From positions 1 through 27,794 of IMG/VR virus record IMGVR_UViG_3300042554_000177: DNA of 27,794 nt; one strand, written 5' to 3'. A program made the translations under genes and the position numbers. This DNA is from a virus. The notes beneath the pieces are model-generated. The model saw only the letters and a list, made by a program, of their open reading frames with translations. It was not told the origin of the DNA and ran no database searches. This document shows, piece after piece, positions 1-22,086 of this stretch (position 1 is its first letter; each line of letters starts with the position of its first letter).

Positions 1-1000
1 CCGCGACTGTGTTGACATTGGCAATCGATCCACCAACAGCATTGACATTGGCAATCGATCCGGCCACCGTCCCAATGGTATTAGTGCCACCAAGATTAGA
101 CGCTACTGTGTTGACATTGGCAATGTTAGTTCCAACAGAATTGACATTGGCAATGTTCGTTCCAACGGTTTCAATTTCAGAAACCGGCTCGTTCAAATCA
201 TTGGCTACTGTGGTGATGTCGGCCAAGTTATTGTAAACCGTGACAATGTACCCATCTGGCGCAGCGCCAGAAGCCCCAGACGCAACATCGGCCACCGATC
301 CAAAATCATAGGCCCAGCCAGTACCTGCCAAATCATCGCCAATTGTGCCAATCTCCGTGGCCTTGGCAGCCAATGTAGAGATGTCGCTGCCAATGGCATT
401 AAGATCCTCAATGTCCTGCTTAATGTCATCCAGATCCTCAATGGCCTGGGTAATCCCTGATAGGGCAACTACCTGTTCGGCAATGTCCGCCACTTCCTGA
501 ACGCCAACCAGGCTATTGCTGACATCTAATTCGCCATTGGCATCAAATCCTAAAACTTTGCCAGCCCGCACACTCGATGCCGGTAGCACGGCGCTTAATG
601 ATGTTGAATCGGTTTCGGCAAACTTGATTGATCGATCAACAGCGGATTGCTGCTGCTGCACAATCTGTGTCAACTTATCTAGCGCTTCCTCATGGGTTTC
701 TGCTGGGAACGGGTCATTGCCCTGATAGTCAACTTCCTGGGTAATCGGGACATTACGGACAATCACCAGGCTTGTGCCTGCTGCTGGGGCTGTCAACATA
801 GTCACCGTGCCACCAGCAGGGTTTCCGGCCCCGGTAACCGTGTAGTCTGTGGTTATGGTCTTGACTGTCTCAGTACCATTGGCCGCCCTGGATATGACCT
901 TTAAATGGTCATTGTCCAAAAAGTAATAAGTGACCGAAAAGGCCGTAGTCGAGCCATTGCCCGAATACGAAACCCTGGATGTTGAACTTGATACGGTCAT
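1..1000 (-). CDS. Tail fibre/spike, N-terminal part (runs off window)
   Basis: Open reading frame of 333 codons with no stop before the window edge, so the receptor-binding C-terminus is missing. It starts at the ATG at 1000, which overlaps the stop of the giant ejection protein as ATGA; GAGGT lies six bases upstream. Residues 1 to about 125 read like the T7-type fibre N-terminal domain that attaches fibres to podovirus tails: MTVSSSTSRVSYSGNGSTT at the start, then DYTVTGAG, GGTVT, NDPFPAETHEEALDKLT and a glutamine-rich stretch. A coiled-coil-like region with many I/L-A/D heptads follows. From about residue 255 there are ten-residue repeats of the form [ST]VG[TG][NS]IANVN. The assignment to the T7-type fibre N-domain is from family knowledge; host receptor and fold of the missing part cannot be judged. 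Confidence 0.85.
   Translation of the reverse strand, partial: MTVSSSTSRVSYSGNGSTTAFSVTYYFLDNDHLKVISRAANGTETVKTITTDYTVTGAGNPAGGTVTMLTAPAAGTSLVIVRNVPITQEVDYQGNDPFPAETHEEALDKLTQIVQQQQSAVDRSIKFAETDSTSLSAVLPASSVRAGKVLGFDANGELDVSNSLVGVQEVADIAEQVVALSGITQAIEDLDDIKQDIEDLNAIGSDISTLAAKATEIGTIGDDLAGTGWAYDFGSVADVASGASGAAPDGYIVTVYNNLADITTVANDLNEPVSEIETVGTNIANVNSVGTNIANVNTVASNLGGTNTIGTVAGSIANVNAVGGSIANVNTVA
12..154 (-). repeat. 30-bp repeats encoding ten-residue fibre repeats
   Basis: The 14-base string TTGACATTGGCAAT (plus-strand text) occurs at 12-25, 42-55, 111-124 and 141-154, that is in two pairs, each with 30-bp spacing. In the fibre frame it encodes IANVN within ten-residue units, with two more degenerate units between the pairs. 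The periodicity matches protein repeats, so it is a coding repeat. It may continue to the left of the window. Confidence 0.8.
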
Positions 1001-4000
1001 CTTATTACCTCACTAGGTTTAATCAGGAATGTCTGGTCATTCTCCCTTTCAATCCTACGCTCCATTCTACGCAAGTACCCAGGATTCAGCCACTCCTGTA
1101 CCCGGTAAAGGATTAAATAGTCCAGCGCCATCCTGGTATAAAACAGGTTCATAAACGGCGTATTTGCAATGACCAGGCGGAATGTCTGCGCGGCTGCGTC
1201 ATCCCCTGATTTAAGCCTTCCCCACAGGTCAGCCAGGTCATCCATAGTGCCAAATGTTGGGCCTGCTACGGTGGCTATAAATCCGCCTCCGTGGCGATTT
1301 TTCATTTCGCCAAACAAGAAGTCACCGTAAATACCAAACGCCCCGCCCTGCAACATTGAGGCTGCCCAGGTAGATGGTGACAGCGGATCGCGTGGTGACC
1401 GGCCCTTAATCAGATCCTTAATAGCCATTGCGCCATACCCAAACAAACTCATCCACAGGATCATGTTAGCCATGCCCAACATGTCACCTTTTCCGTTTTT
1501 CAGGTAGTCACCCAGGTTGTCATAGCCACGGCCATAAATTTCCCGGCCAATTGTGCGCTGCAAAATGGCTACTGGGAAAGATTTAAACTGAGCAAAGAAC
1601 CTAGCAATCTCACCCCAGACCGTGCCAGGATTTGTGCCGCGCAACAAAAATGCTCTTGTTCTAGCATCCGGCTCAATTACAGCATGCTCTCCACGGTCAA
1701 TAAACATTGAGCGCATTGCGCCCTGGATGTCTTGAATCAGGTTAGCAACAGACGCATCATTGACCTGGCGGCCAACGCCCACAATGTAATTTTCAAGCGC
1801 TTCACGGGGTAGAGATGCAATGCCCTCTGGGGTCATGTATGTCCGGCCATCGGCTTCTTTGGTAGATGCCATGCGGATTAGATCCCACTTGCCTTCATCA
1901 ATGTTGTAAAGGCTAAACAAATTTTGCAGGTCTGGGCGCAGGTCAATAAACCTAGTGTTTCTATGGAATGCGAGGTTAGCCGAAAGACTGAGCGCTGCCG
2001 ACTTCCGCAAAGTTTCCGTCCACCAGGTCAAACCATTCCATTTAAAGAACTGGTTTTGCAACTTGGTCATTGTGCCGCCCATGTTTTGCTCACCATCAAA
2101 CCGGCGCAGCACGCCATTACGCATGCTGTCAAAAAACACGCCCAGGCTGTTCATAATCTCTTGCTGCTCCTGGCTGCCACGGCCCTGCAGCAAGCCATTG
2201 ATAGCATCGGCCATACCGGAAAACAGGGTGCGCCCCTGGAACCGTTGCTCTGCTGCGTATACCGGAATGTCGGTTATTGACGAAATTACAGCGCCGCCCA
2301 ACTTAGACATTGACTGCCAGGTACGAACACCGGCAGAAATCCTGGCGGCCATCTGATGGGCAGGTATATTGGCTGTGCCATCCACATGCGATAGCAAATC
2401 CATAACTGCTTTATTGCTTTGAATAAATTTACTATATGCCTTTGTATCGCCACGCAAATTATTTGCAACCTCATCCATCATGCGCTTAATAGCAGCCTGT
2501 GGATTTGTGCCAAAAATTTTCATTAGGCCAGCAGACCTGGCAGACCGTTCTAATCCACCCAGCACAGCATCGGCAAACCTGGCAGATCCAAACTTGTCGT
2601 TATAGTCATACCAGGAATCACCGTCCCTAAAATACAGCGTCCTAGACTGCGAGGCTTTGCGGGCCAATGACAGACCCTGACCACGAAATGCGGCCATTGT
2701 GTCCTCATCAGGATCAAACTTCATATGCTGGCCGGAAGCAAAATTGGTATACATCTCACGCAGGCCAGCCTCAATATCGGTCACGCCACGGCTGATAAAG
2801 GTCTTATCAATGTCAATTCTGGGCAGCACAAAATCGCGCCACTCGTTAAATGATGCATTGCGTACCCGGAACGGATCATGCGTCTGGCGGACAATGTATC
2901 CCTTCAAATCACGAATCCATGCGCCAAATCGATTCTGGGTATTGCGGGCATCATTTTGATACTTGTTAATAATCTCAGCCATCTGCACGGCTTCGCGTGG
3001 CATCCGGCTCATGTCGGCATTAGGATCAGCCATCATGTAAAGCGCCCTGGCTGTATCGCGGGCCATTGCCTCAGAAGTAAACAACTTCCACAGACCGGCA
3101 CGCTCCATGTCGGCAATGATGCCGCCCATCCATTGGCCTAAGAATTGATTGATTTCAGCCTGGGCAGATGCCCGTGCGCCACGGCGCTTCATCTCAGACC
3201 CGGCAATCAGGGCTTTAAAGCCCTCAACTTCCATGCCCTTAAACTCGCCCTGCACAAACGACAGCGCCTTCATTCTGGCAGCCAGGTTAAGCGCTGCATT
3301 ACGCTTTTCAATTACCGCCGCCATCATTAGATTATTAGCCAATTCATTGGCTGCCTGCATAGCGTCAGATTGCAGGCTGGATGCCATGTCCTGGGCCATT
3401 GAGGATTCGCGGATCTTCCGCAGCCGGTTACGCACAGATGCATTCTGAAACCGCAATTGTGCCAGCAGGTCATCAATTTCTTGCTTAGTTAGCGTGCCGC
3501 CAGATGCCGATTGCATGGCCGACTGCGCCGCTGCGTCATCACTAATGCGCTCTGCTGCCGCCCGGATTGCTTTACTGTAAACCTCGGCTTTAGCAATGGC
3601 ATCATCAAACAATCGCATTTCTGCTGCCATGTCATTAGATTGATCCGCGCCACGGGAATACTGGAATTGAAACTCCATATCCAGCCCCATGCGCTCACGC
3701 CTTGCCACAGAATGCAATGACGATACGGCCAGCGCCCGAATGTCTGCCTCAGTCAATTCTATGTTGTCGCGCACCAATTGGAATGTACGGTACGCCCAGG
3801 CACGCACGGCTGCAATGATCTGCTTGACCAGGCTTAACTCTGGAGCATTCTCGATCAGGTAGGCTAATTGCTCAGATGCCACATGCTGGCTAGGCGTATC
3901 CTTTGGAACATTGCTGGCAGCCTCTACAAACTTGGCATCACCACGGGCAATGCCTTCAGCCACCTGGCCCAGCACATCCTTGTAAACAATTGGGCCAAGT

Positions 4001-7000
4001 AACTGCTCCATACCCACATGCTCACCTACTTCGTGCAAAATCAAACCAGGTACTTCGGCTGCTTTGACATTTTCAGCAACAATGTAAACCGTGCCATCTG
4101 GGCCGGTCATGCCGCGCACATCTTCTGGATGCGGGCCATCAGGTAATTCGCCAACTTTATTAACAATCTTAATCTGGCCTACTTCTAACAACTTTTCTGT
4201 TGACCGGCCAAACGCGCCAACAGCAGCAGTAGTGATTGAATCTACTGTTTCTGTGACTTCGACTTCTGCACCTCTGGCGTATTGAGCATCCTGTCGAGTT
4301 CCATCTCCGCCAGTTTCGACTTTCTTAGGCGCTCCGCCTGGCTCACCAGCAATTCCTGTTTCTGTGTTGTAGTCAATAATTTCCCGTGCAGCCCGTTTCC
4401 CGTTAGATAGTGCCGCGCTAAGTTCTTTGTGAAGTTCTCCATCAATGCCTCCAAGGGATAGCAATTCGTCCAGGTTAGATTGTAATTCTTTTCTAGCCTT
4501 CTGGATCTGCAAATCTTTTTGCAAATCAGACACCAAAACAACCTGGGCCTTGCGCTCACTTGTTTTGCGATCCTTGTAAAAGCACCCCATTGTGCCGGTC
4601 AGGTCACATGCCGTACATGTCCAGACATTTTTTTCTGCTGTTTTATCCAAAATCTGGACAAACGATACGCCTGGCTGGGTAATCTTTTTGCCACCGTCCA
4701 CCGGGCAAAGATTGTTTTTCTTCATTTTTGGGTACAGATCAGGGAACCGCTGGGCCAATTCTGCCGGATCGACAGCCTTGCCTTTTAGGTTTACCGGCAG
4801 GTATACCGATACCCGGTCATGCAATGGGTTAAGCATGGCTTCTGTTATATCGTCAGTAATTGTCACGGCCAAACGCAGGTCTGGATTGTCCATTGCCACC
4901 TTGATATTGGTGGAATCTACAGACAGCATTTTTAGATTCATCTCAGACATCTGGCGCAGCAATTCTGGGCGCTTTGAGAAAATCTGAATTGCAATGCCGC
5001 GCTCATTGAGTTTATTAACCAGCACTACCTGCGCTGGGGACAGATCACCCTTGTCATTTAACCGCAGCGACAAACCGGCCCGGCCTGCTGCCGTGGCTAG
5101 ATAGTCATTGGCAATCTTGTCAGCCATCTGGTCTGGGAATTTTTCAATCATAAATTCCGTAAACTCAGACTTGGCAATCTCATTGGGCCTGGCATTAGAT
5201 CCTGCTGCATAGCAATGAACCGCGCACGCCCTGCTTGGATCGCAATTGGTAAACGATGTAGAAATGTCGTTTTCAGCCTTACGATTGCCGCCGATAAACT
5301 CATAAGAATCCAGCACCATTCGTAAAATCTTGTCACCAAATTGCGGGTATTTTTTAAATGTCTTAATGATCTTAGTGGCAGCCATATCTTGCTTGCCCCA
5401 GATCTCGTTTTTCTCCAGCATTGAAATGTCTTGACCTGCCATAGCGCGATCTAGCATTTCACGATAGGCCATACCCTTGACCGCAGCAGCCGCCCAGGCC
5501 GTGCCTTTAAACTGTTCCAGGTTATCCATCACCCTAGTCTGCTCTTCTTTTGGCAGCCGTTTAATCCTAGCCAATACTGCCTCGCGGACATCCGGGTTTA
5601 CTTTGTCCAAATCACCGGTAATTGCATTTTTGCCAGCCTCTGGCACAGATTCAGCATCTGTGGGCTTAGTAGCCCTGGAATACTTGTACGCATCATTGCC
5701 CCGCTTAACCACCTCATCGGCCTGGAATAGCGCGTCATCCAGCGACTGTTGGGCATCGGTCACGCCTTTGGATCTTAAATCCACAGCAACCGCAGCGTCA
5801 GCGTCAGCAGAAATTAGGGCATCAATACTTTGCTGCTCATTGGCAGCAGCAAGCGCAGAATCCTTAGTAGTAGTGCCAATGGATTGATCTGCCCCAATAA
5901 TTGGATCAACATTGACTTTTTGCCCTTCGGCCAATTGGGCCACAGACACACGCAACGCTGCCTCACGGGTTTCAGCGGATACCCGGTTAATCTTGGCCGA
6001 AGCAGACGGATCGTTCATCATTCCGTCCATTGCCTGGTCAATCAGATCCATCTTGGTAGGCGCTGCAACGCCACCAAAAATATCACCCTGGGTAGGATCA
6101 CCAGCGCGATCTAGGGCTGCATAGTATTCGTTAATAAAGCCAGAAATGGCACGGGCAGACCGGATGTTGTCATCCAGGAATCTCAGAATCTCTAACTGCT
6201 CCGGTGTCATGTCACGGCCAAGAATGTCACCCTGGCTCATGTAGTCATCAAAATCCATGCCCTTGGAGCGCAGGTCAGTCAACTTAGCAACCGCTGCCTG
6301 CAGATCATCAGAAATGTCGGCATCAAATAACCGGCCCTCTGCAATACGCGCACGGGCATCAGCAATCACCCCAGCAGACCGGATCAGCGCTGTAGACAGA
6401 TTGGCCGATGCATCATCAGTAGATTCAACCAGGCGCTTTAGGATTTGGCTGTCACCATAAGCACGGTACAAAATTGCATTCCGCAGCCGGGTAAGACCTT
6501 CTTTAGACAAATACCCTTCTGATGTCAGCAGCGCCGACTGTTGATTGACCGGGAATTGACCAACCCATTGCTTGATTGCGCCTCGATTGCCAGCCGTATT
6601 TAGATCTCCATTTTCAGGAATATCAAACCCACGAAAATCTTTTAAGCGCTCCGCATCCACTCCGGCCTGCTCAAGCGCCGACATGCGGGCAGCGCCCCCT
6701 TCGTTAGAAATAATAGCCGCCTGCTTGATGTCTACATCCTCGCGCAGCACTCGCACCAGCATTGGCTTTTTCATGCCATCAATGGCCGTGGCATCAACGC
6801 CAAATTCGTCCAACTGCGCCAGCAGCCGTGATCGATAATTGCCCACCTTGCCAATGTCATACGATGTCGAAATTCCCATCACACGGCCATTGCCGCCAAT
6901 AACCAGGCCATCCTTAGATAATGTCGGTGCGCCATAGTCCATGACGGGTGACCATTGCAATTGGTCATAGTCAGGGTTATTACTAATTTCGCGGATTTGG

Positions 7001-8106
7001 GCGCTTGATGCCTGGCGTGTACGGTCTCGCCATTGATTGTCGGCCTTAGTCATTGCAGCCTCGACATCCACCAGGTCAACAACAGCCCATTGCGCGGCCA
7101 CTTTGGTCTGACCAATACTGACCTGGGTATCCTCGCCATAAATAGTGCCACGGGGTAGCGCTACATCCTGGCCTTGGCGATCAATTGATCCGGTATCACG
7201 GATCAGCCCGGCAGCACGCAGCACCGATTGCGGATACTTCTGGGCAATCTCAATAACCTGCTCTGGACTATTGATGCCCTGGGCAACCAATGCGTCCACC
7301 TCATAAACCTGCTTTATCTGGTCAGTAGACAGCCCTAGCAGCCGATTAAACGGATCAGGCTTGTTGCGGTATGCCCGATAAAAATCAGCCCCGCTGCCGC
7401 CCAATACATGCAGCCCACCGCCAAATACAGCGCCAAACCCAATGTTCAGCGCTGAATCCAACATGCCGTAGTCGGCCTGCTCAAACTTGGCAGACCCATA
7501 GATGATTGGCTCAACCAGCGCAGCGCCAACCAAACCTTCGGCAGCGCCCACAGCCAGGCGCGGCAGCACCCGTGAACCAGTAGTCCCAGCCCTAGCCAGC
7601 AATTGAGCATAGCGGGCCTGGCCCACAATTGGCACAAATGCCGTACCCACATTGATTGGATCTAGGATAGACGCAGCAAACGCAGTACCAAACTTGGCCG
7701 TGCCAGCCACAAACCCACTAGGCCCGCGCTGGATAATGTCATTGCGGCGCATCTCGTCTTGCTTGCGCTCGATCAAAATATCTAGCGCTTTGACATTGAT
7801 GCCATCATCCGGCACTTCTAACTTGACACCGGATTCTTTAATCTTTTGCCTGGCAGTTAAAGCATCCAATCTGTCTGGCGCTGCCACCGGCTGGACACCG
7901 GCCATTGCCTCTTCTGGGCTAATCTCTTCTGGCCCGCGCCCCGCTTCCATTGCCTGGCTTAACTCGCCAGCCCTAACAACTGACAGCGTAGGTGACCGGA
8001 TTAGCGCTTCGCGTGCGGTCTGGTAAAGGGTTTCGCCTAGACCAGCCGAGTATTCGTCCAGGGTAGTGTTGCGTCTTGTCGGTAATCCATCGGTATAAAT
8101 TGGCAT
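997..8106 (-). CDS. Giant multidomain ejected virion protein (2369 aa)
   Basis: Very large internal virion protein, placed directly before the fibre gene and after two other ejection proteins. That is the usual place for the largest T7 gp16-like ejection protein. Residues about 130-235 are rich in small and hydrophobic residues (possible membrane segments). Residues about 320-500 resemble the DdrB-type ParB-like domain, with GGNGR at 404-408. Residues about 940-1195 resemble the phage GP88 domain, with Cys 955, 961, 965 and later Cys 1134, 1164, 1167, 1175. Residues about 1280-1465 look like a zincin protease with HEVGEH at 1358-1363. Then come alpha-helical, coiled-coil-like segments and a C-terminal region (about 1640-2369) with RAFLLRGTNPGTVWGE and FFAQFKSFPVA, typical of large podovirus ejection proteins. 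The ribosome site is weak (GGGTAGAGCAA before ATG), 13 bases after the upstream stop. The ejection role is inferred from position and the C-terminus. Confidence 0.85.
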   Translation of the reverse strand: MPIYTDGLPTRRNTTLDEYSAGLGETLYQTAREALIRSPTLSVVRAGELSQAMEAGRGPEEISPEEAMAGVQPVAAPDRLDALTARQKIKESGVKLEVPDDGINVKALDILIERKQDEMRRNDIIQRGPSGFVAGTAKFGTAFAASILDPINVGTAFVPIVGQARYAQLLARAGTTGSRVLPRLAVGAAEGLVGAALVEPIIYGSAKFEQADYGMLDSALNIGFGAVFGGGLHVLGGSGADFYRAYRNKPDPFNRLLGLSTDQIKQVYEVDALVAQGINSPEQVIEIAQKYPQSVLRAAGLIRDTGSIDRQGQDVALPRGTIYGEDTQVSIGQTKVAAQWAVVDLVDVEAAMTKADNQWRDRTRQASSAQIREISNNPDYDQLQWSPVMDYGAPTLSKDGLVIGGNGRVMGISTSYDIGKVGNYRSRLLAQLDEFGVDATAIDGMKKPMLVRVLREDVDIKQAAIISNEGGAARMSALEQAGVDAERLKDFRGFDIPENGDLNTAGNRGAIKQWVGQFPVNQQSALLTSEGYLSKEGLTRLRNAILYRAYGDSQILKRLVESTDDASANLSTALIRSAGVIADARARIAEGRLFDADISDDLQAAVAKLTDLRSKGMDFDDYMSQGDILGRDMTPEQLEILRFLDDNIRSARAISGFINEYYAALDRAGDPTQGDIFGGVAAPTKMDLIDQAMDGMMNDPSASAKINRVSAETREAALRVSVAQLAEGQKVNVDPIIGADQSIGTTTKDSALAAANEQQSIDALISADADAAVAVDLRSKGVTDAQQSLDDALFQADEVVKRGNDAYKYSRATKPTDAESVPEAGKNAITGDLDKVNPDVREAVLARIKRLPKEEQTRVMDNLEQFKGTAWAAAAVKGMAYREMLDRAMAGQDISMLEKNEIWGKQDMAATKIIKTFKKYPQFGDKILRMVLDSYEFIGGNRKAENDISTSFTNCDPSRACAVHCYAAGSNARPNEIAKSEFTEFMIEKFPDQMADKIANDYLATAAGRAGLSLRLNDKGDLSPAQVVLVNKLNERGIAIQIFSKRPELLRQMSEMNLKMLSVDSTNIKVAMDNPDLRLAVTITDDITEAMLNPLHDRVSVYLPVNLKGKAVDPAELAQRFPDLYPKMKKNNLCPVDGGKKITQPGVSFVQILDKTAEKNVWTCTACDLTGTMGCFYKDRKTSERKAQVVLVSDLQKDLQIQKARKELQSNLDELLSLGGIDGELHKELSAALSNGKRAAREIIDYNTETGIAGEPGGAPKKVETGGDGTRQDAQYARGAEVEVTETVDSITTAAVGAFGRSTEKLLEVGQIKIVNKVGELPDGPHPEDVRGMTGPDGTVYIVAENVKAAEVPGLILHEVGEHVGMEQLLGPIVYKDVLGQVAEGIARGDAKFVEAASNVPKDTPSQHVASEQLAYLIENAPELSLVKQIIAAVRAWAYRTFQLVRDNIELTEADIRALAVSSLHSVARRERMGLDMEFQFQYSRGADQSNDMAAEMRLFDDAIAKAEVYSKAIRAAAERISDDAAAQSAMQSASGGTLTKQEIDDLLAQLRFQNASVRNRLRKIRESSMAQDMASSLQSDAMQAANELANNLMMAAVIEKRNAALNLAARMKALSFVQGEFKGMEVEGFKALIAGSEMKRRGARASAQAEINQFLGQWMGGIIADMERAGLWKLFTSEAMARDTARALYMMADPNADMSRMPREAVQMAEIINKYQNDARNTQNRFGAWIRDLKGYIVRQTHDPFRVRNASFNEWRDFVLPRIDIDKTFISRGVTDIEAGLREMYTNFASGQHMKFDPDEDTMAAFRGQGLSLARKASQSRTLYFRDGDSWYDYNDKFGSARFADAVLGGLERSARSAGLMKIFGTNPQAAIKRMMDEVANNLRGDTKAYSKFIQSNKAVMDLLSHVDGTANIPAHQMAARISAGVRTWQSMSKLGGAVISSITDIPVYAAEQRFQGRTLFSGMADAINGLLQGRGSQEQQEIMNSLGVFFDSMRNGVLRRFDGEQNMGGTMTKLQNQFFKWNGLTWWTETLRKSAALSLSANLAFHRNTRFIDLRPDLQNLFSLYNIDEGKWDLIRMASTKEADGRTYMTPEGIASLPREALENYIVGVGRQVNDASVANLIQDIQGAMRSMFIDRGEHAVIEPDARTRAFLLRGTNPGTVWGEIARFFAQFKSFPVAILQRTIGREIYGRGYDNLGDYLKNGKGDMLGMANMILWMSLFGYGAMAIKDLIKGRSPRDPLSPSTWAASMLQGGAFGIYGDFLFGEMKNRHGGGFIATVAGPTFGTMDDLADLWGRLKSGDDAAAQTFRLVIANTPFMNLFYTRMALDYLILYRVQEWLNPGYLRRMERRIERENDQTFLIKPSEVIR
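3712..4269 (-). other. Zincin-like protease domain inside the giant protein
   Basis: Residues about 1280-1465. The core is LILHEVGEH, giving His1358, Glu1359 and His1363 (HExxxH spacing), followed about 50 residues later by SEQLAYLIE, where Glu1412 could be the third metal ligand. Predicted zinc-dependent peptidases with this pattern are known from large phage and conjugative 'polyvalent' proteins. Activity is inference. Confidence 0.55.
4522..5289 (-). other. GP88-like cysteine-rich domain inside the giant protein
   Basis: Residues about 940-1195. It has CDPSRACAVHCYA (Cys 955, 961, 965), then SLRLNDKGDLS at 1013-1023, QIFSKRPELL at 1041-1050, LSVD at 1061-1064, and a second Cys group (1134; CTAC at 1164-1167; 1175). 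The order Cys cluster plus CYA, Arg-x-Asn-x-x-GD, then KRP and LS-D matches what I know of the phage GP88 family. That family's biochemical role is not established. Metal or Fe-S binding is inferred from the cysteines only. Confidence 0.5.
6607..7149 (-). other. DdrB-type ParB-like domain inside the giant protein
   Basis: Residues about 320-500. Features are VVDLVDVEAA near the start, LQWSPVMDYGAPTLSKDG, the GGNGRVMGIS loop at 404-413 and PMLVRVL at 448-454. A GNGR-type loop is the hallmark of ParB-superfamily nucleotide-binding folds. This subtype is known in phage and plasmid polyvalent proteins. The domain is thought to act on DNA or nucleotides in the newly infected cell; that role is inference here. 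Confidence 0.55.
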
Positions 8107-8119
8107 TTGCTCTACCCGG

Positions 8120-10663
8120 TTAAGGCATCATTGGGACTGAAAACATTGTTTCAATCGCTGATCTTTGATTCTCCCCAGCAGATTTTAACTGACCCCAGGT
8201 GTAAACAATTGGCTTTCCTGCTTTGTTTAAAACAGGTGAGCGCGAATCAGCATTAAACAAAACCAAACCGTCCTCATTGGGTGATGTCACCCAATAACTA
8301 TTTTTGCGAATGCTCTTGGCGTAATCTTTTGAAACAAAAGAATCCCTACGCATTGTCTCTGGGATAGCCAGATCATCAGGGTTTATATTTTGCAAAAAGT
8401 AATTTGCGCCCTCTTGCACCCCGGCAGCGCCAACAGACATTGGAACCCGGTAAGTATTGGAAAACACATACCGCCCCATTACGGTAGACTGCGCCGCTTT
8501 CTTGGCTGCGTCAGATTCATTCATGCCCTGGGCGCGGTAATAAGATGCCAGGCGCACGGTCTCATCATAAAAAATGTTGAATTGCTCAATGCCGCCAATA
8601 GTGCGCGGAGACCCGTCAGATCCAACCATTGAAAATTTAAAATCTTCTAATTCTGCTGCCACTTTTTCACCAATAATCTTTTTAGTGTCAGATGGCAGGC
8701 CAACTAAAATATCATCAACTTTGAGTTTAGATGCAATCGCCATGTCGGCTGCGGCTGCGCCGGTCATGCCAGACCCAATCACAATTGCCGATGGTGGCAA
8801 TGCCTTGCTCTGAATCAATTGGCGGTACACCACCGGCCAACTGTCACCCCAGATTTTTGACATTGCGTCAATCTTTACGGCAATCGATTCGCCATCCTGT
8901 GCGCCAATAAACTGCTGCTGAATATTGTCAATTGCAGACTTGGACAGAATCTTGGGCGATCCAATGCCCAGGCGCGTCTGCTCTGCAATTGATGCACTAG
9001 CGTAATTCCTTGCCGCTGTCTTTTGCTCATCTAATGTCGCACCAGCCTTGCCGGTAACATCAATAAACGCCTTGTAAGATGTCTCTACGGTTTTGCTCGA
9101 TGACAGCGCAAACACGGCAGGATCATCCTCGCGCATTTTTAGCACCCGCCCAGCGGCAGCGGACATAATCTGGTGGCGCTTGGATGCCATCTCATAACCC
9201 TCGCCAGGCACGGGCTGCTTAGACGCAACAAACGCATTGATTGCCTCATTGGGCATTGTTTTCATGGTGGAAATGTCACCAGCCAAAACCTGATTGTCTT
9301 GGTATTCCTGAAATTTGCGCGTGCCATCTTGCGGGCCATAGGCACGGATAAACTGATCTTGTGCCAATTGCGTAGGATTCGTTATTCCATTGACCGCCAT
9401 TGCATTGGCATCGCCCACCTGGCGCTCTAATTCTGCACGGTAAACTGATCGCTGTTGGCTTGCATATGTATTAGCAGCCCGGATATAGGTATCCCATTTT
9501 CTGGCATCAACCATATCCAAACCAGGGTTCCCGCTTGCCGTGGCCTGCACTTCAGACGGTTTCATCTCTTTGACAAATGCCTGCAATTTGTCAACACGGT
9601 TCATCCAGCCTTTTAAATACTTGGCATTTTCAGGATCTTGGGCCAGACGGTTATATTCGTCACGGCGCAATTGCAGCAATGTATCGACATTGCCATTTGA
9701 TTGGGCAATTAACTTTTTGGCCGTACCCACACCCATGTTGACAGCGGTATCAAATGCCACGGCAGCCAATTGTGGCGGCAGATCACCAGCATTGATTGCG
9801 TCCCAATAGCGCTGCCGGTAAATCTTGGCTGCGCCATCTTTAGTTAAATTTTTAACATCGATGTCTGGATTGGCTTTTTGATTGATTCCAAAATTGGCTG
9901 GCGCTGCAGACTTTCCGTCTTTTTCGACATATCCGCCTTCCATCTGAAACACAAAATTTAACGCTGGCTCAAATGCTGGGCCACCGGATTTCATTCCAAC
10001 ATCATCTAAAAACTTTTCTGGATCACGCCTAATTGTCGCTTCTGCGTAAGACCCACCAATTGTTTCTTTCAATAGCGTCCGCAATTCCTGCTTTTTGCTC
10101 TCAGGCATATTGGATGCATTGATGCCATCCATGCCAGCCGTAAATGTGCGGTTTAAAGTTTCTGGCGTTGGATCAAGCGCTACGCCCTGGCCGTATTTCA
10201 AAATGCTGTCTTTGTGCAAATTGAAACGATAGTTGACACCCTCTGTGGCCTCAAAACTAAGGGACGATCCAAGGATAGACTTCCGCATGCTGCTCATGTT
10301 GGCAGCCAGCATCCGGCGAGTTCTAGGATTTGCTGTGGCTTTTAAGGTCTGGTCTGACCAGGTATCAAATTCTGATGCAACATTCTTAGTAAAATTCTTA
10401 GCGCCTGGTTCTGCAGAATTCTGCATGTCATTGAGTTTTTGCTTCCACTCAATTTCGCTAGTGGCAAAAACATTATTGGCTTCGGCTTTGGCATTTTCCT
10501 CTTCAACATCATGCATGACCTGGGCGGTCTGCTGCATGGCCTGGCCGACATTGCCCAAAGCCTTACCCATTGCGCCCAGATTGGCATCTGGCACGCGCAT
10601 TTCAGGAATGCCACGGCCACCTGATACGGTCTGTCGCTCTTCGTAGATTGGAATTCTCGCCAT
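8120..10663 (-). CDS. Ejection protein with GH108 muramidase-like domain (847 aa)
   Basis: Second large internal virion protein. It starts with ATG two bases after the upstream TAA, with no clear Shine-Dalgarno, so translation is probably coupled. Residues about 30-225 are mostly helical. Residues about 230-365 match the glycosyl hydrolase 108 N-acetylmuramidase pattern: the FQMEGGY motif with the candidate catalytic Glu242, NFGIN at 257-261, YRQRYWDAI, AFDTAVNMGVG and a late GW (352-353) before the partner helix. The rest (about 375-847) has no domain I recognise and ends near TWGQLKSAGENQ. In podoviruses a peptidoglycan-cutting domain in an ejected protein lets the ejection channel pass the cell wall, as in T7 gp16. 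The GH108 call rests on motif order. Confidence 0.8.
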   Translation of the reverse strand: MARIPIYEERQTVSGGRGIPEMRVPDANLGAMGKALGNVGQAMQQTAQVMHDVEEENAKAEANNVFATSEIEWKQKLNDMQNSAEPGAKNFTKNVASEFDTWSDQTLKATANPRTRRMLAANMSSMRKSILGSSLSFEATEGVNYRFNLHKDSILKYGQGVALDPTPETLNRTFTAGMDGINASNMPESKKQELRTLLKETIGGSYAEATIRRDPEKFLDDVGMKSGGPAFEPALNFVFQMEGGYVEKDGKSAAPANFGINQKANPDIDVKNLTKDGAAKIYRQRYWDAINAGDLPPQLAAVAFDTAVNMGVGTAKKLIAQSNGNVDTLLQLRRDEYNRLAQDPENAKYLKGWMNRVDKLQAFVKEMKPSEVQATASGNPGLDMVDARKWDTYIRAANTYASQQRSVYRAELERQVGDANAMAVNGITNPTQLAQDQFIRAYGPQDGTRKFQEYQDNQVLAGDISTMKTMPNEAINAFVASKQPVPGEGYEMASKRHQIMSAAAGRVLKMREDDPAVFALSSSKTVETSYKAFIDVTGKAGATLDEQKTAARNYASASIAEQTRLGIGSPKILSKSAIDNIQQQFIGAQDGESIAVKIDAMSKIWGDSWPVVYRQLIQSKALPPSAIVIGSGMTGAAAADMAIASKLKVDDILVGLPSDTKKIIGEKVAAELEDFKFSMVGSDGSPRTIGGIEQFNIFYDETVRLASYYRAQGMNESDAAKKAAQSTVMGRYVFSNTYRVPMSVGAAGVQEGANYFLQNINPDDLAIPETMRRDSFVSKDYAKSIRKNSYWVTSPNEDGLVLFNADSRSPVLNKAGKPIVYTWGQLKSAGENQRSAIETMFSVPMMP

Positions 10664-10665
10664 GA

Positions 10666-11253
10666 TTACGCCAGATTAGATGATTGATACGAAAACCCGC
10701 CTTGCATCGGCGTGCCACTTGGGGTGGTCATTGTTTTAAGACCTGTAGAACCAGTTCCAGCCATTGTGTAAGACTTGTACGCCATTGCAGATCCAGACAA
10801 GATGTCGGCCCCGGCGCTGATATACGATGCCCGCACGGCATTCTTGCCTGCAGCCCGATTAACCTTGGCTGAGTATTGATCCATTTCGGCTGATGCCAAT
10901 AATCCCCTGGCTTTTAAATCGCCTTCGTACCGAATTGTCAACGAATCCAATTCCGCCATTGTTTCCGATTGTTCGGCAATATCGGCCATTGATCCGCCCA
11001 GGCCAGCGCCAGATTGAGCAATGGCTGCCCGCTGCTTGCCAAGTATTGTCCTGGCCTGTCGGCGCTGCTGCTCTTCCCGTATATTGGCCTGCTGCCGGGT
11101 AATGTCTGCTTCTTGGCGCTTGATGCCCGCATTGAAATCTTCAGCATTGGCCCTGGCATCGGCCATTGCCTTGTCAGCCTGGCCTTGCTGCAGCGTGCCA
11201 ATAGCCTTCATGGCCGTAGCGGCCACAAGCATTATGGTTACTGGATCAGCCAT
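10666..11253 (-). CDS. Small internal/ejection protein, T7 gp14-like position
   Basis: 195-residue protein with a hydrophobic N-terminus (MADPVTIMLVAATAMKAIGT), then a long charged helical stretch rich in Q, A and R (about 25-110), and a glycine/serine-rich C-terminus. This layout, and its place just before the two large ejection proteins, is that of the T7 gp14-like internal core proteins that form the outer-membrane part of the DNA ejection conduit. AAGGA lies six bases upstream of the ATG. It overlaps the end of the GNAT-like gene by 8 bases. The function is from context and composition; there is no catalytic motif. Confidence 0.7.
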   Translation of the reverse strand: MADPVTIMLVAATAMKAIGTLQQGQADKAMADARANAEDFNAGIKRQEADITRQQANIREEQQRRQARTILGKQRAAIAQSGAGLGGSMADIAEQSETMAELDSLTIRYEGDLKARGLLASAEMDQYSAKVNRAAGKNAVRASYISAGADILSGSAMAYKSYTMAGTGSTGLKTMTTPSGTPMQGGFSYQSSNLA

Positions 11254-11674
11254 GTTTTATCCTTGCGTACAAAATACAGTCCTTGCCTAATGGACTAAAC
11301 GCCCGCATGTACCCTTCGCGCTCAAAGCCCAGCATCTGAATCCAGCGGTGACCAGCCTCAAAATCAGCGTCCACAAATGCCTCAACACGGTTGAAATCTG
11401 TCGTATCTAAAAACCGTTTTACAGCCTTGTGAATCCGCACAAACTGCTTGCCAGCGTATTCAGAAATTAAGCCCCACGCAATGGCTCGATTATCCCATTG
11501 CTTGACCACTCCTGCACATGCTAAAACCTCGTCACCATCCATTGCCGTAAAACACGGGCCAGCAGCCTTCAATGCCGGGCCGTATTCCTCATCAAAAAAC
11601 ACGGACACGGCTGCCTGGCTAGGCTGCAGCACCAAAATCTCAAGATGACGGGATTGGAATGGTTCGATATGCAT
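11246..11674 (-). CDS. GNAT-like internal virion protein (T7 gp13-like)
   Basis: 142-residue protein with an acetyltransferase-like fold pattern: FTAMDGDEVLACAGV as the central beta strands, AFVDADFEAGHRWIQMLGF and YARIKHG at the end. The phrase GHRWIQMLGFEREGYMR is close to the C-terminal part of GNAT enzymes (helix, GF, strand). Proteins of this size and place in T7-like phages belong to the DUF2833/internal protein A (gp13) group, needed for virion assembly although often lacking proven enzyme activity. The ATG shares one base with the upstream TGA stop (TGATG), and AGGA sits seven bases before it. Whether it binds acetyl-CoA cannot be told from sequence. Confidence 0.7.
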   Translation of the reverse strand: MHIEPFQSRHLEILVLQPSQAAVSVFFDEEYGPALKAAGPCFTAMDGDEVLACAGVVKQWDNRAIAWGLISEYAGKQFVRIHKAVKRFLDTTDFNRVEAFVDADFEAGHRWIQMLGFEREGYMRAFSPLGKDCILYARIKHG

Positions 11675-14028
11675 CAGCGATCCTGTGTCTGCAATTGCGG
11701 CATCAGCGCCACCAATGTCATGGGCAGCGGCTGATCCTGCTCAACAATCATGTACCCGTCAAAATCATAACCACCAGGCCATTCCATAATTTTGTCACCA
11801 GTAAATAGCGGCACGGGCGCGTCCATCAGCGCCGATCCACTACGGAATTGGATCTCATCTAAGTGATCAACATCAGGCCCGGCTTTAGCGCCAACCGTAG
11901 CCAAGAACCGAATCACCATCTTATTGATGCGCTTGGTCTTGCCCTGGGCCGTGCCATCGCCAGCGCCAGCCTCTGGGCGCATGGTCTGCAATCTGGATGT
12001 ATACGGCAGCCCAACATGAACCACGCTCGATGCCCGCTGCAATGTCACAGACCCACTTTCAACCGTCCGGTTAGGATGCGCTGCACCATCGGCCAGAATT
12101 GACACAATCTTGCCTTCCAAGTGATCCAGGCCGCTAATTGTGCTGACCGCTGTGCTGTCATATGTCAGGCCGCAATCCACACAAAATGCGTCCTCAATGT
12201 CGTTATTGTCAACAAAATCAGGCCACAAATACTCAATGTATCGCTTGGTCTGCCCATCAATAGTCCGGCGCACAATCATCCATAGGTCATCCTGGTCACC
12301 AAACGGGCTAGGAATGGTTTCTACACACTCCACTATGCCATCCCCTCCCAGCGGGTGACGATGCCAGCCAAGGACATCCTGCTCACGATTAAAGGTAAAT
12401 CCCAGCAACTCGCCATCTGAGCGGACGCACCACACAATTGAATGCGGTTCCTGCTGATAGCAAATATCTACTAATCCGCCGTAGGTGATATGTTCTGACA
12501 ATACCGTTAAATCAGAGGATTTGTAGCCGTTATTGGCAAAATCAAACACCAATTCGCGCAATTTCTGGCCGGAGCGTTGCACAAACAGCACCGATTCGCC
12601 AACCAGTACCGGAATCACAGACTTCGATCCGTAAGACGATTGCGGCACAATCTTCACATTGTCTGGGCCTAGCGGCTGGTCTGTTGTCACCTCTTGGGCC
12701 ACAAACTCGCCACCGGCTGTCCCAATTAGCAGGCCATCAGATGCGGCCAACCACTCAATTTTGTTGACCTGATCGCTTGATACCTCAATGGCAATTGCCA
12801 TGTCAGCCACAACCTGGCCGGATTCGTCACGGTCTGCAAAGTTCTCATAATCGGCAGCCACCGACATATCAATTTTTTGCCCGCTGGCAAATACCAGGCG
12901 CTCACGGAAAAACGCTACCTGGCTGGGCCAACCACGGACGGATGACCAGCGACTAAATGCCCAGCGATTGGTGGCATTGCCAGACCCAACAGCGCCAGAT
13001 GGCAGGCGAGACACAACATCAGCAGTAACCGTGGTGCTGTTAGTAAACCCGGTAATCTTTACATAGCCATAGCCAGGATCGCGAAATTGCCATTGCACCC
13101 CGCTGTCACCATCATAGACAGCGCCAATGCTGTGGATGGGCTTTACCGTGCCTGTGGTGGCCGAATTAAGTGCCTCATAGGTCTTACCATCAGACCGGCG
13201 GCGTGCGCCGCTGCTAATCGATTTGCCAACTTCCCATTGGGTAATTCCATCAACACTCTTTTGCTCTAGCAAAAATGTGCTGCCGACATCGGTAGACGCA
13301 AACAACGCGCTTGATGCTGTTAAAGTAATTCCTGTGCCGGTCTGCGCGGACGCATAAACCGTGATTGCTTCGTCTGGATCGACATCCTCAAACGGGCCGC
13401 CCAAAAAATTGATGTCCTCCAATATCCACTTAGTAGCGGAATACCTGGACAGTTTCTTTGGCGCATAAGACGGATGCACAATGTAAACCACATCGGCAGA
13501 TTGAACCGTCCTCAATTTCAGCGTGTTATTGCTATTAGTCAAATCCGCAGCCGTGTACGGGCTAGGAATCTCGTATGTTGTCCCGGTCAATGTGTGCCAC
13601 TTGCCAGCAGCCAGGTCTGTAGAAAATGTCCCAGAAGTGTGAGCCACCTTGCAATAGTAATTTGTCCCGCCATTGGATCTTAGGTCACCAACCGCATAGG
13701 CCGTGCTGGTCAGCCAGGCCGTAACCGATCCGGTCTGCACCTGACCATAATTGGTGTAAAACCGGATGTATTGGTCACCAAACTCTAGGATGTACGCCTG
13801 GCTTTCGGAAAACTCAAAGCGCAGCAGCCAGGATCTATTGGCAGAATTTTTGATTTCTTCGACAAAATAAGTACCAGACCGGCGGCGTGCCGGGCCTTGC
13901 ACCATCGGTATAAAGTTCTCTAGCGTGCGGCAGCCACTTGAATACTTGTTAAGATCCGTGCGGCCTTCCAGGGTAGGTGACAACTCCCCGGTGTTAAATG
14001 AATACTGTATCGGGCTGGCTTTGGGCAT
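11674..14028 (-). CDS. Tail tubular protein B-like tail hub (784 aa)
   Basis: Large beta-rich tail protein. The N-terminal signature is FNTGELSPTLEGR, then LNKYSSGCRTLENFIP and GPARRRSGTYF. This is the conserved start of T7 gp12-like/stabilisation tail hub proteins in podoviruses. Further in are several segments rich in aromatic and glycine residues, such as WPSQVAFFRERLVFASG, FVAQEVTTDQPLGP and PLGGDGIVECVETIPSP, all usual for this family. I chose the ATG at 14028, which overlaps the upstream stop as TAATG, over a TTG four codons earlier. The protein forms the nozzle to which fibres attach; that role is from the family. Confidence 0.85.
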   Translation of the reverse strand: MPKASPIQYSFNTGELSPTLEGRTDLNKYSSGCRTLENFIPMVQGPARRRSGTYFVEEIKNSANRSWLLRFEFSESQAYILEFGDQYIRFYTNYGQVQTGSVTAWLTSTAYAVGDLRSNGGTNYYCKVAHTSGTFSTDLAAGKWHTLTGTTYEIPSPYTAADLTNSNNTLKLRTVQSADVVYIVHPSYAPKKLSRYSATKWILEDINFLGGPFEDVDPDEAITVYASAQTGTGITLTASSALFASTDVGSTFLLEQKSVDGITQWEVGKSISSGARRRSDGKTYEALNSATTGTVKPIHSIGAVYDGDSGVQWQFRDPGYGYVKITGFTNSTTVTADVVSRLPSGAVGSGNATNRWAFSRWSSVRGWPSQVAFFRERLVFASGQKIDMSVAADYENFADRDESGQVVADMAIAIEVSSDQVNKIEWLAASDGLLIGTAGGEFVAQEVTTDQPLGPDNVKIVPQSSYGSKSVIPVLVGESVLFVQRSGQKLRELVFDFANNGYKSSDLTVLSEHITYGGLVDICYQQEPHSIVWCVRSDGELLGFTFNREQDVLGWHRHPLGGDGIVECVETIPSPFGDQDDLWMIVRRTIDGQTKRYIEYLWPDFVDNNDIEDAFCVDCGLTYDSTAVSTISGLDHLEGKIVSILADGAAHPNRTVESGSVTLQRASSVVHVGLPYTSRLQTMRPEAGAGDGTAQGKTKRINKMVIRFLATVGAKAGPDVDHLDEIQFRSGSALMDAPVPLFTGDKIMEWPGGYDFDGYMIVEQDQPLPMTLVALMPQLQTQDR

Positions 14029-14615
14029 TATTCGTACCAATCCAATGAAAGATATGCGGTAGCCGATCCAGTTCCAACATTGGTCATGCGGATCAGATAC
14101 GACACATTATCTTGAAATATGTATTCAAAAGAAAATGCACCAGATCCGGCAGCCTTTTTAGAATCACCGGCAGAAATATATTCCCGGTGAAACTCCGTGC
14201 CTGTCGCGGTCACGGTAGGATTAACTAAAATGCCCGCCTGGCTGATCCTGGTTGATTCTCTGTTGCGATTGATGGGTGTAAAGATTGTCCCACCAGATGC
14301 GGACGCACCCTCAAACCAGGCGATCTCGCAGTCCTGGCTACAAGATGTCTGGATAGTGACATGAGCGCTTGTTCCGACATTTGTTGTGAACACCATATTG
14401 AGACTTGCACCAGCGGCCAATCCAGCGCTTGGCGGGTAATACTTGTATGCATTAAAAGCCCGGCCTTCATGCATCCGCAGATGGTTAATGTCCAGGATTG
14501 GCAAACCGTAATCAGACCCAACCACGCGCTGTGCGTCATCCGTGTCCTTTGCGGTTAGGGCAACGAACCTGGCAACGGTCTGATCTGATTCGCGCTCGAC
14601 ATATACGGCGGTCAT
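14028..14615 (-). CDS. Beta-rich phage structural protein (195 aa), function unknown
   Basis: Belongs to a common group of phage structural proteins with the C-terminal pattern 'acidic residue - WFEGAS - GT - N-x-NR', then 'V-T-GT-hydrophobic', then 'V-S-Y-L-I-R-T-N' and a terminal WYE. All of these are visible here (IAWFEGASASGGTIF, INRNREST, SYLIRMTNVG, DWYE). Such proteins lie between adaptor and tail hub genes and are usually called virion or decoration proteins, with no assigned job. The start is the ATG at 14615, which overlaps the adaptor's TGA as ATGA; an in-frame TTG six codons earlier is less likely. Confidence 0.7.
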   Translation of the reverse strand: MTAVYVERESDQTVARFVALTAKDTDDAQRVVGSDYGLPILDINHLRMHEGRAFNAYKYYPPSAGLAAGASLNMVFTTNVGTSAHVTIQTSCSQDCEIAWFEGASASGGTIFTPINRNRESTRISQAGILVNPTVTATGTEFHREYISAGDSKKAAGSGAFSFEYIFQDNVSYLIRMTNVGTGSATAYLSLDWYE

Positions 14616-20856: not shown

Positions 20857-22086
20857 CTAAGAAAAAATCTCATACTCACTAACAGCCTGGCGTGGACGAG
20901 CCTCAACCCGTCTGTTCGCCCTGCGTGCGTTCTCTAATGCATAGCGCAGCGCATCGATGACATGATTTTCTTTGTCCTCTAATTGCGGCAGCACTTCCCC
21001 TGTCATTTTATCCACCTTATAGGAATAAAGCGATAGTTCGTCAATTGTATGCTTACAGCGCGGATGCACAACTATTTCAAAAGATTTTAGCCATTCGATC
21101 CCATCCTCGACTGACTTTGGCCCTTTGATGGCTGCATTGATCCTGGGGAACCCGTTCTTTCTCATGTGGCTGATGGTCTCTGGCCTGGCTGAATCAGCCG
21201 TGATCGGCCACTTTTCGGCCTCCGGCACGGTCATAAACAGGTCTGGCGTGTTGACAATCTCGCAGCCAACCATGTATGCCTCATAGTCCACATACAGTTT
21301 ACGGCCCGTTATGTAGCAACGCACCAGGACTGTCGGATCTGTGGCAAACCCCCAATCAGCGCCAAAGCGCAGCACGGCATTGACATCGGTCTCAAACTCT
21401 TCAATTCGCCAATTGTGGAAAACCTTGGCCTCGCTGTTGGTCAGGTAGCCGCCCATCCAGACATGGTTAAATTTATCTGGATCGCGCCCCCGGTCATACT
21501 CCATTTCTTCCCGCAGCACATCAGGAAACCAGGGATTGTCCGAGTAATTGACTTTGACCACGGATGCATCTGGCGGTGGATTGTCACCCCGCAGCAGCAT
21601 GTCAACAGGATCTGTGGCCTCGCGTGGGTTCCATGAGAACCACAACTCGCTGCCTGGCTTACGGATGGTGGGCCGCAGCAGGTCAATCGATACCTGGCTC
21701 ATAGATTGCGCCTCTTCCACCCAGGCCCGGTCAAACCCTTCCAGCGACTTTATGGAATCTGCCGTGTGGTTCTGCATACCCTGAAAGATAATCAGGCCAG
21801 GCCCGCGCTTAGACTTGATCATTGAATCCTGGACATCAAAGTAAGCGCCAGCATTCAGGTCTTGGATCTTGTTTTCTAGCAGCCGCTTGACCGATTGGTT
21901 CAGGGTACGCTGGATCTCCCGGACGCAAACCGAGGATTGGGCCTGGTTCCGGATATGTTCCTCAATCATCATTTCAGCAAAGAAATGGGACTTGCCCGAA
22001 CCCCGGCCACCCCATGCCCCCTTGTACCGGCTGGGACTAAGTAACGGCAGCGCCCATCTAGGCGTATCAATGTTTAGGATCGACAA
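20857..22086 (-). CDS. Terminase large subunit (409 aa)
   Basis: ATP-driven DNA packaging motor and headful nuclease. Walker A is GGRGSGKS at 26-33, Walker B with catalytic Glu is AWVEEA at 121-126, and the coupling motif is SWNP at 151-154. The RNase-H-like nuclease has FGADWGFATDPT (Asp244), ADSARPETI (Asp298) and NHVIDALRY (Asp378). This is the Terminase_3 (PBSX/Sf6-like) type, short at 409 residues but complete. The only good start is a TTG at 22086: a TAA stands five codons upstream in frame, and no ATG or GTG occurs before the Walker A motif. It overlaps the small terminase by 20 bases, which suggests coupling. Confidence 0.95.
   Translation of the reverse strand: MSILNIDTPRWALPLLSPSRYKGAWGGRGSGKSHFFAEMMIEEHIRNQAQSSVCVREIQRTLNQSVKRLLENKIQDLNAGAYFDVQDSMIKSKRGPGLIIFQGMQNHTADSIKSLEGFDRAWVEEAQSMSQVSIDLLRPTIRKPGSELWFSWNPREATDPVDMLLRGDNPPPDASVVKVNYSDNPWFPDVLREEMEYDRGRDPDKFNHVWMGGYLTNSEAKVFHNWRIEEFETDVNAVLRFGADWGFATDPTVLVRCYITGRKLYVDYEAYMVGCEIVNTPDLFMTVPEAEKWPITADSARPETISHMRKNGFPRINAAIKGPKSVEDGIEWLKSFEIVVHPRCKHTIDELSLYSYKVDKMTGEVLPQLEDKENHVIDALRYALENARRANRRVEARPRQAVSEYEIFS

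Follow-up and report, generated by a model that had tools for sequence, protein, structure and literature searches.

The giant virion protein encoded in this stretch of phage DNA raises the question of what a block of cysteines contributes to a polypeptide that may enter the host cell together with the genome. The window, meaning the whole stretch of DNA that was analysed, is a single virus record of 27,794 bases. Its gene order (terminase, head-tail connector, capsid, nozzle, T7_gp14, a GH108 protein, an open reading frame (ORF) of 2369 aa and an ORF with a tail-fibre-like N-terminus) marks it, judged by gene content, as a short-tailed phage with the gene set of a T7-like podovirus. The terminase (20857–22086) is closest to those of a phage from the Manatee Spring metagenome (76%) and Xanthomonas phage PBR31 (72%), a hint of a proteobacterial host. 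The nozzle-like protein (11674–14040) gave a weak match to the carbohydrate-binding family CBM_5_12 that fell below the cut-off. The giant protein and the two genes next to it are as follows.

997..8106, minus strand: giant protein of 2369 aa occupying the slot of gp16, the ejection protein, in a T7-like podovirus
8120..10663, minus strand: gp15-like internal protein with a GH108 lysozyme (PF05838, 2.5e-18)
10666..11253, minus strand: T7 gp14-like internal virion protein (PF24072, 1.3e-8)

The 2369-aa gene follows the gp14- and gp15-like genes, as in T7-like phages, its homologues include proteins annotated as internal virion proteins, and the protein matches PHROG 684 ("virion structural protein") at 1.7e-185. 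The original prediction had placed the cysteines in an ejected virion protein, a context that gene order and homology support. By analogy with such proteins, the 2369-aa protein is probably ejected into the bacterium along with the DNA.

The polypeptide may be considered in terms of two virion ends with cargo between them.

7384..8106, minus strand: N-terminal virion part, residues 1–241, matching Ab31 ORF15
6745..7107, minus strand: ddrB-like ParB domain (PF18763) in the cargo, residues 334–454 (E 7.1e-26, over the cut-off)
4018..4035, minus strand: HEVGEH in the cargo, an HEXXXH and possible zincin-like peptidase motif (motif only)
1009..3507, minus strand: C-terminal virion part, residues 1534–2366, matching Ab31 ORF16 and PHROG 684

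Residues 1–241 are 42% identical to residues 1–237 of ORF15 from Pseudomonas phage Ab31, and residues 1534–2366 are 42% identical to Ab31 ORF16 over the length of ORF16. The two are separate adjacent genes in Ab31 and are fused in the window protein, where approximately 1290 residues of cargo lie between the matching ends. Pelagibacter phage homologues of the window protein are annotated as internal virion proteins, one of which ("putative internal virion protein") is 39% identical to the N-terminal part. A Pfam search of the HEVGEH region (4018–4035) returned no match; HEXXXH is on record for one group of peptidases from polyvalent proteins (Iyer et al. 2017, PMC5512222). With a ddrB-ParB domain, a GP88-like module and an HEXXXH motif in one large polypeptide, the window protein has the composition of a polyvalent protein.

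The 2369-aa protein contains exactly seven Cys (955, 961, 965, 1134, 1164, 1167 and 1175). From a rough scan estimate, the chance of all seven lying inside any 221-residue span is about 5e-6. Since Cys is wholly absent from the GH108 neighbour (847 aa), this amino acid appears to be scarce among these cassette proteins. The module that holds the seven Cys has the following parts.

4450..5634, minus strand: seven-Cys GP88-like module, residues ~825–1219, from the exchanged stretch, the alignments and the AlphaFold model
5206..5244, minus strand: C955-x5-C961-x3-C965-Y-A, predicted metal or Fe-S site 1, spaced as in most GP88 proteins aligned
5044..5064, minus strand: RLNDKGD at the end of a predicted strand, matching the R-x-H-x-x-GD motif of GP88
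4966..4977, minus strand: SKRP where the next predicted strand ends, from alignment and model
4915..4938, minus strand: NLKMLSVD, collinear with NL-x-x-Y-x-S-x-D of GP88
4582..4707, minus strand: C1134-P...C1164-x2-C1167-x7-C1175 (CP...CTAC...C), predicted metal site 2, invariant in 8 members

The original prediction had described a Cys-rich block with the motifs C-x5-C-x3-C-Y-A, R-x-N-x-x-GD, KRP and C...CTAC...C, all of which are present at the positions given above, and the seven Cys all fall at residues 955–1175. The block was also located correctly, but its proposed extent (residues ~940–1195) misses about 115 conserved N-terminal residues of the module.

Eight modules were aligned, from the window and from loci L002, L098, L102, L103, L108, L105 and L111, with distant loci recovered by scans that used subregions of the module. 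The seven other modules are 43–72% identical to that of the window across ~395 residues. All seven Cys are invariant among the eight, as are NDKGDLS, FSKRP, NLKMLS, CPVDGGK and WTCxACD. In the helical lead-in, a PADLOC match to REase_III (7.5e-4) in one of the eight members was judged to be due to chance. The module-bearing proteins range from 806 to 3957 residues, some of the reading frames being cut by contig ends, and beyond the module they hold 0–2 Cys per reading frame seen, with none in most. When the whole window protein was compared with them by BLASTP, residues ~815–1335 at most were aligned, which is essentially the module; it is the only stretch common to the window protein and the other polyvalent proteins compared. 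L002 and L098 have further similarity to each other in sequence that the window protein does not share. Since the compared proteins show no similarity to the window protein outside the module, the module may be regarded as an exchanged cassette. A near-twin phage (L001) has DNA that is ~96% identical to the window, and within the module the two differ by four synonymous and no nonsynonymous changes, consistent with purifying selection, the changes being too few to give its strength.

The setting of the module is also recurrent. The module-bearing ORF comes after gp14- and gp15-sized genes in L098, L102, L105 and L108, and a fibre-like ORF is next after it in L102, L108 and L111. The giant module-bearing proteins of L002 (3–7616) and L111 (478–11886) include ART-PolyVal, an ADP-ribosyltransferase domain. 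In L105 (8168–10585), the module lies in a protein of 806 aa followed by an ORF of 1018 aa, suggesting that the gp16 slot is split in two genes there. That phages with little else in common carry the module in this one slot suggests an interchangeable enzyme that would be delivered as infection begins. A tblastn search of phages with the window domain found nothing at 0.01 and only poor matches at E ≤ 10. Two scans of genome contigs found no relatives and so gave no link to a host or prophage.

To our knowledge, GP88 is a widespread phage family with no known activity. Against the Pfam GP88 model (PF17338, curated cut-off 24.4 bits), the window domain scored 18.2 bits and is under the cut-off. 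The modules of L102 and L103, both 71% identical to that of the window, scored 26.8 and 27.4 bits and are above it. Seven of the eight members had GP88 as their best Pfam match, with E-values (library-wide) between 3.8e-6 and 0.0056, which bears out the resemblance that had been proposed. A Streptomyces plasmid that matched the window domain weakly by tblastn (E 1) encodes a true GP88 protein (2.7e-59). A joint alignment of the module and GP88 has no variation at the three N-terminal Cys or at R, GD, S and N, and the alignments show C-x5/6-C-x3-C-[YF]-A followed by R-x4-GD. D29 gp88 and a Byblos protein space the first Cys pair by x6 rather than x5 and have a second group of the form CP...CxxCGxC; as a result, both Cys groups of the module have counterparts in the namesake type of GP88. 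In the module, the second group reads CP...CxxC-x7-C and differs from the D29 type in the last spacing, while some GP88 members have no such group. A profile-profile comparison (hhalign) of the module with GP88, which had been suggested as a check, did not bear the kinship out, being not significant with shallow profiles (E 0.012–0.019, probability 2–4%). A narrow GP88 HMM gave no significant match to the module either, and the shallowness of the profiles probably accounts for both results.

GP88 proteins also exist as small separate phage genes, and the neighbours of 80 GP88 genes gave no clue to function. The view of GP88 as always free-standing needs correction, since one large protein already bears the name "Gene product 88 domain-containing protein" in UniProt. 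In addition, 13 of 23 GP88 proteins (alignment A10, L016–L093) match DUF7227, the best at 1.1e-4, from which the two Pfam families look related.

An AlphaFold model of the module was built from the eight modules alone, with GP88 sequences left out (pLDDT = 71.6, pTM = 0.73). A helical lead-in is followed by the Cys loop with helices and then by an alternation of strands and helices, the strands beginning at 190, 216, 234, 255 and 275 in model numbering. Model residues 312–372, which include most of the second Cys group, have a pLDDT below 50; confidence is low in the region whose counterpart in D29 gp88 is CP...CxxCxxC. A Foldseek search of viral models (BFVD) ranked A0A6J5RM19 first (E 1.8e-20, 31% identity, TMq 0.72). 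GP88 proteins occupied ranks 1, 2, 4, 5, 7 and 8, with E < 0.001 for ranks 1–3 only, and a Radical_SAM protein, DUF7227 and a Gp37/Gp68-like protein were found at ranks 10, 13 and 15. The matches point to the same fold in the module and GP88. A GP88 model made from its own 23-sequence alignment (pLDDT = 90.8, pTM = 0.89) has the same order of elements, with the module having one extra β/α unit ahead of the second Cys group. Taken with the Pfam scores, the models support the kinship of the module as a divergent relative of the GP88 family.

Against the PDB, neither model had a fold match under E 0.001 (best 0.068 for the module and 0.0069 for GP88), and PDB sequence searches with the module found no relative. 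The module list consists mostly of barrels, none significant. Among solved structures, those nearest to the GP88 model are TIM barrels, IspG, which is an Fe-S barrel enzyme, and spore photoproduct lyase, the last with five entries in the list (RMSD 4.7–4.8, E 0.019). Spore photoproduct lyase is a radical SAM enzyme, and the canonical radical SAM motif is CX3CX2C. From the two lists, a barrel-like core is supported, which the original prediction had required of a structural model, and radical SAM kinship is a hint. In the comparison with radical SAM that had been suggested, the β/α order and weak fold matches are what hint at kinship, but all eight members have CX5CX3C and not the canonical motif. 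The element order assigned by DSSP fits a (β/α)6 partial barrel with no significant PDB match, and a Pfam search of the members matched no radical SAM model.

Given the invariance of the Cys, the module is likely to bind a metal such as zinc or an Fe-S cluster. The most likely reading is that of a β/α-barrel Fe-S enzyme, perhaps radical-SAM-like, that would be rebuilt in the new host. The main rival is a module that binds zinc only. The GP88-like fold and the delivery would be the same, but both Cys groups would be structural zinc sites and the protein would bind nucleic acid or protein with no redox or radical chemistry. The C-terminal Cys region is weakly like an L37ae zinc ribbon (Pfam E 0.011 in L105), PDB sequence matches to L43/L37a were seen at E 0.17–0.9, and zinc sites may be better suited than labile clusters to passing the portal partly unfolded. 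The L37ae match is under the cut-off of that family, however, and a three-Cys site by a β/α core with conserved GD, KRP and SxD at strand ends resembles an active site more than it does a zinc ribbon, so that this rival is rather unlikely.

A role in the producing cell is improbable. The domain would then assist virion assembly or modify phage DNA or protein and be a mere passenger after ejection, a view with which the small separate GP88 genes agree; the producing cell could also supply the clusters, and delivery is itself deduced from the setting of the gene. Against this, the module is consistently embedded in an ejection-protein gene beside polyvalent cargo and not separate. That the window by itself is under the Pfam cut-off would fit a functionless degenerate remnant or a chance likeness to GP88, but this is very hard to reconcile with seven Cys and motifs invariant at 43–72% identity, no nonsynonymous change relative to L001 and the GP88 fold matches. 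The conservation largely refutes it.

On balance, the module is probably a divergent member of the GP88 family, an enzymatic cassette that phages can exchange within the cargo region of a polyvalent ejection protein. It would fold, over residues 825–1219, as an α-helical lead-in and a β/α (partial barrel) core. The N-terminal C-x5-C-x3-C loop would hold one metal centre, for which the likeliest candidate is a [4Fe-4S] cluster bound by three Cys in the manner of radical-SAM-like enzymes, possibly with use of SAM, and the C-terminal four-Cys group a second centre (auxiliary Fe-S or zinc). The polypeptide would be packed in the head core and would be unfolded, at least in part, as it crosses the portal and tail. 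A labile cluster would probably not survive this unfolding, from which it is predicted that assembly by the host would be needed. T7 gp16 refolds after exit from the capsid and its C-terminal part has been placed in the cytoplasm (PMC8954989). From this analogy, we infer that the cargo reaches the cytoplasm, where the module would refold, its cluster would be rebuilt from host supplies, and it would, within minutes of the start of infection, modify some target of host or phage origin, with the ParB-like nuclease and putative peptidase acting as neighbouring cargo. A more tentative possibility is a virion-delivered, radical-SAM-like Fe-S enzyme that regains its clusters from the new host and, ahead of any phage gene expression, carries out radical reactions on a macromolecule of the host or the phage.

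Both GP88 and polyvalent ejection proteins were already known, as was a large GP88-domain protein with automatic annotation, of which there is at least one. The literature search found no paper pairing "Gene product 88" with phage, and GP88, radical SAM, Fe-S and cysteine are absent from the main text of the paper on polyvalent proteins (PMC5512222). The literature searched did not contain the combination seen here, in which a GP88-like cargo with seven invariant Cys is recurrent and swapped. That ejection proteins carry such a cargo repeatedly suggests that it acts when the genome enters the cell, and the seven Cys provide a compact handle on it. If the module is an Fe-S enzyme, radical or redox chemistry would join the predicted toolkit of injected phage effectors, and one may ask how a protein with a cluster can come through the portal.

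Among known systems, the radical SAM superfamily shares with the module a three-Cys loop ahead of the first long helices, a β/α core, an acidic motif past the next strand and an additional C-terminal Cys group; the module differs in its Cys spacing and has no sequence-profile match. GP88 proteins present C-x5-C-x3-C-Y/F-A (C-x6-C in the D29 type), R-x-x-x-x-GD and N-L-x4-S-x-D in the same order on a β/α fold. In contrast to GP88, the module has only ~20% identity, sits in giant proteins behind a helical lead-in of ~100 residues, has a final Cys spacing of x7 instead of x2 and has N in its GD motif where GP88 has H. The best fold match, A0A6J5RM19, is a "Gene product 88 domain-containing protein" from uncultured-phage data that aligned over 379 columns, in a structure entry of 1122 residues. 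Polyvalent proteins (PMC5512222) are likewise giant multidomain virion proteins with ddrB-ParB and an HEXXXH motif, and share ART-PolyVal with the relatives L002 and L111. Lastly, T7 gp16 and the podovirus ejection proteins have the same gene position behind gp14- and gp15-like genes, and Ab31 keeps as separate genes the parts that cargo divides in the window protein.
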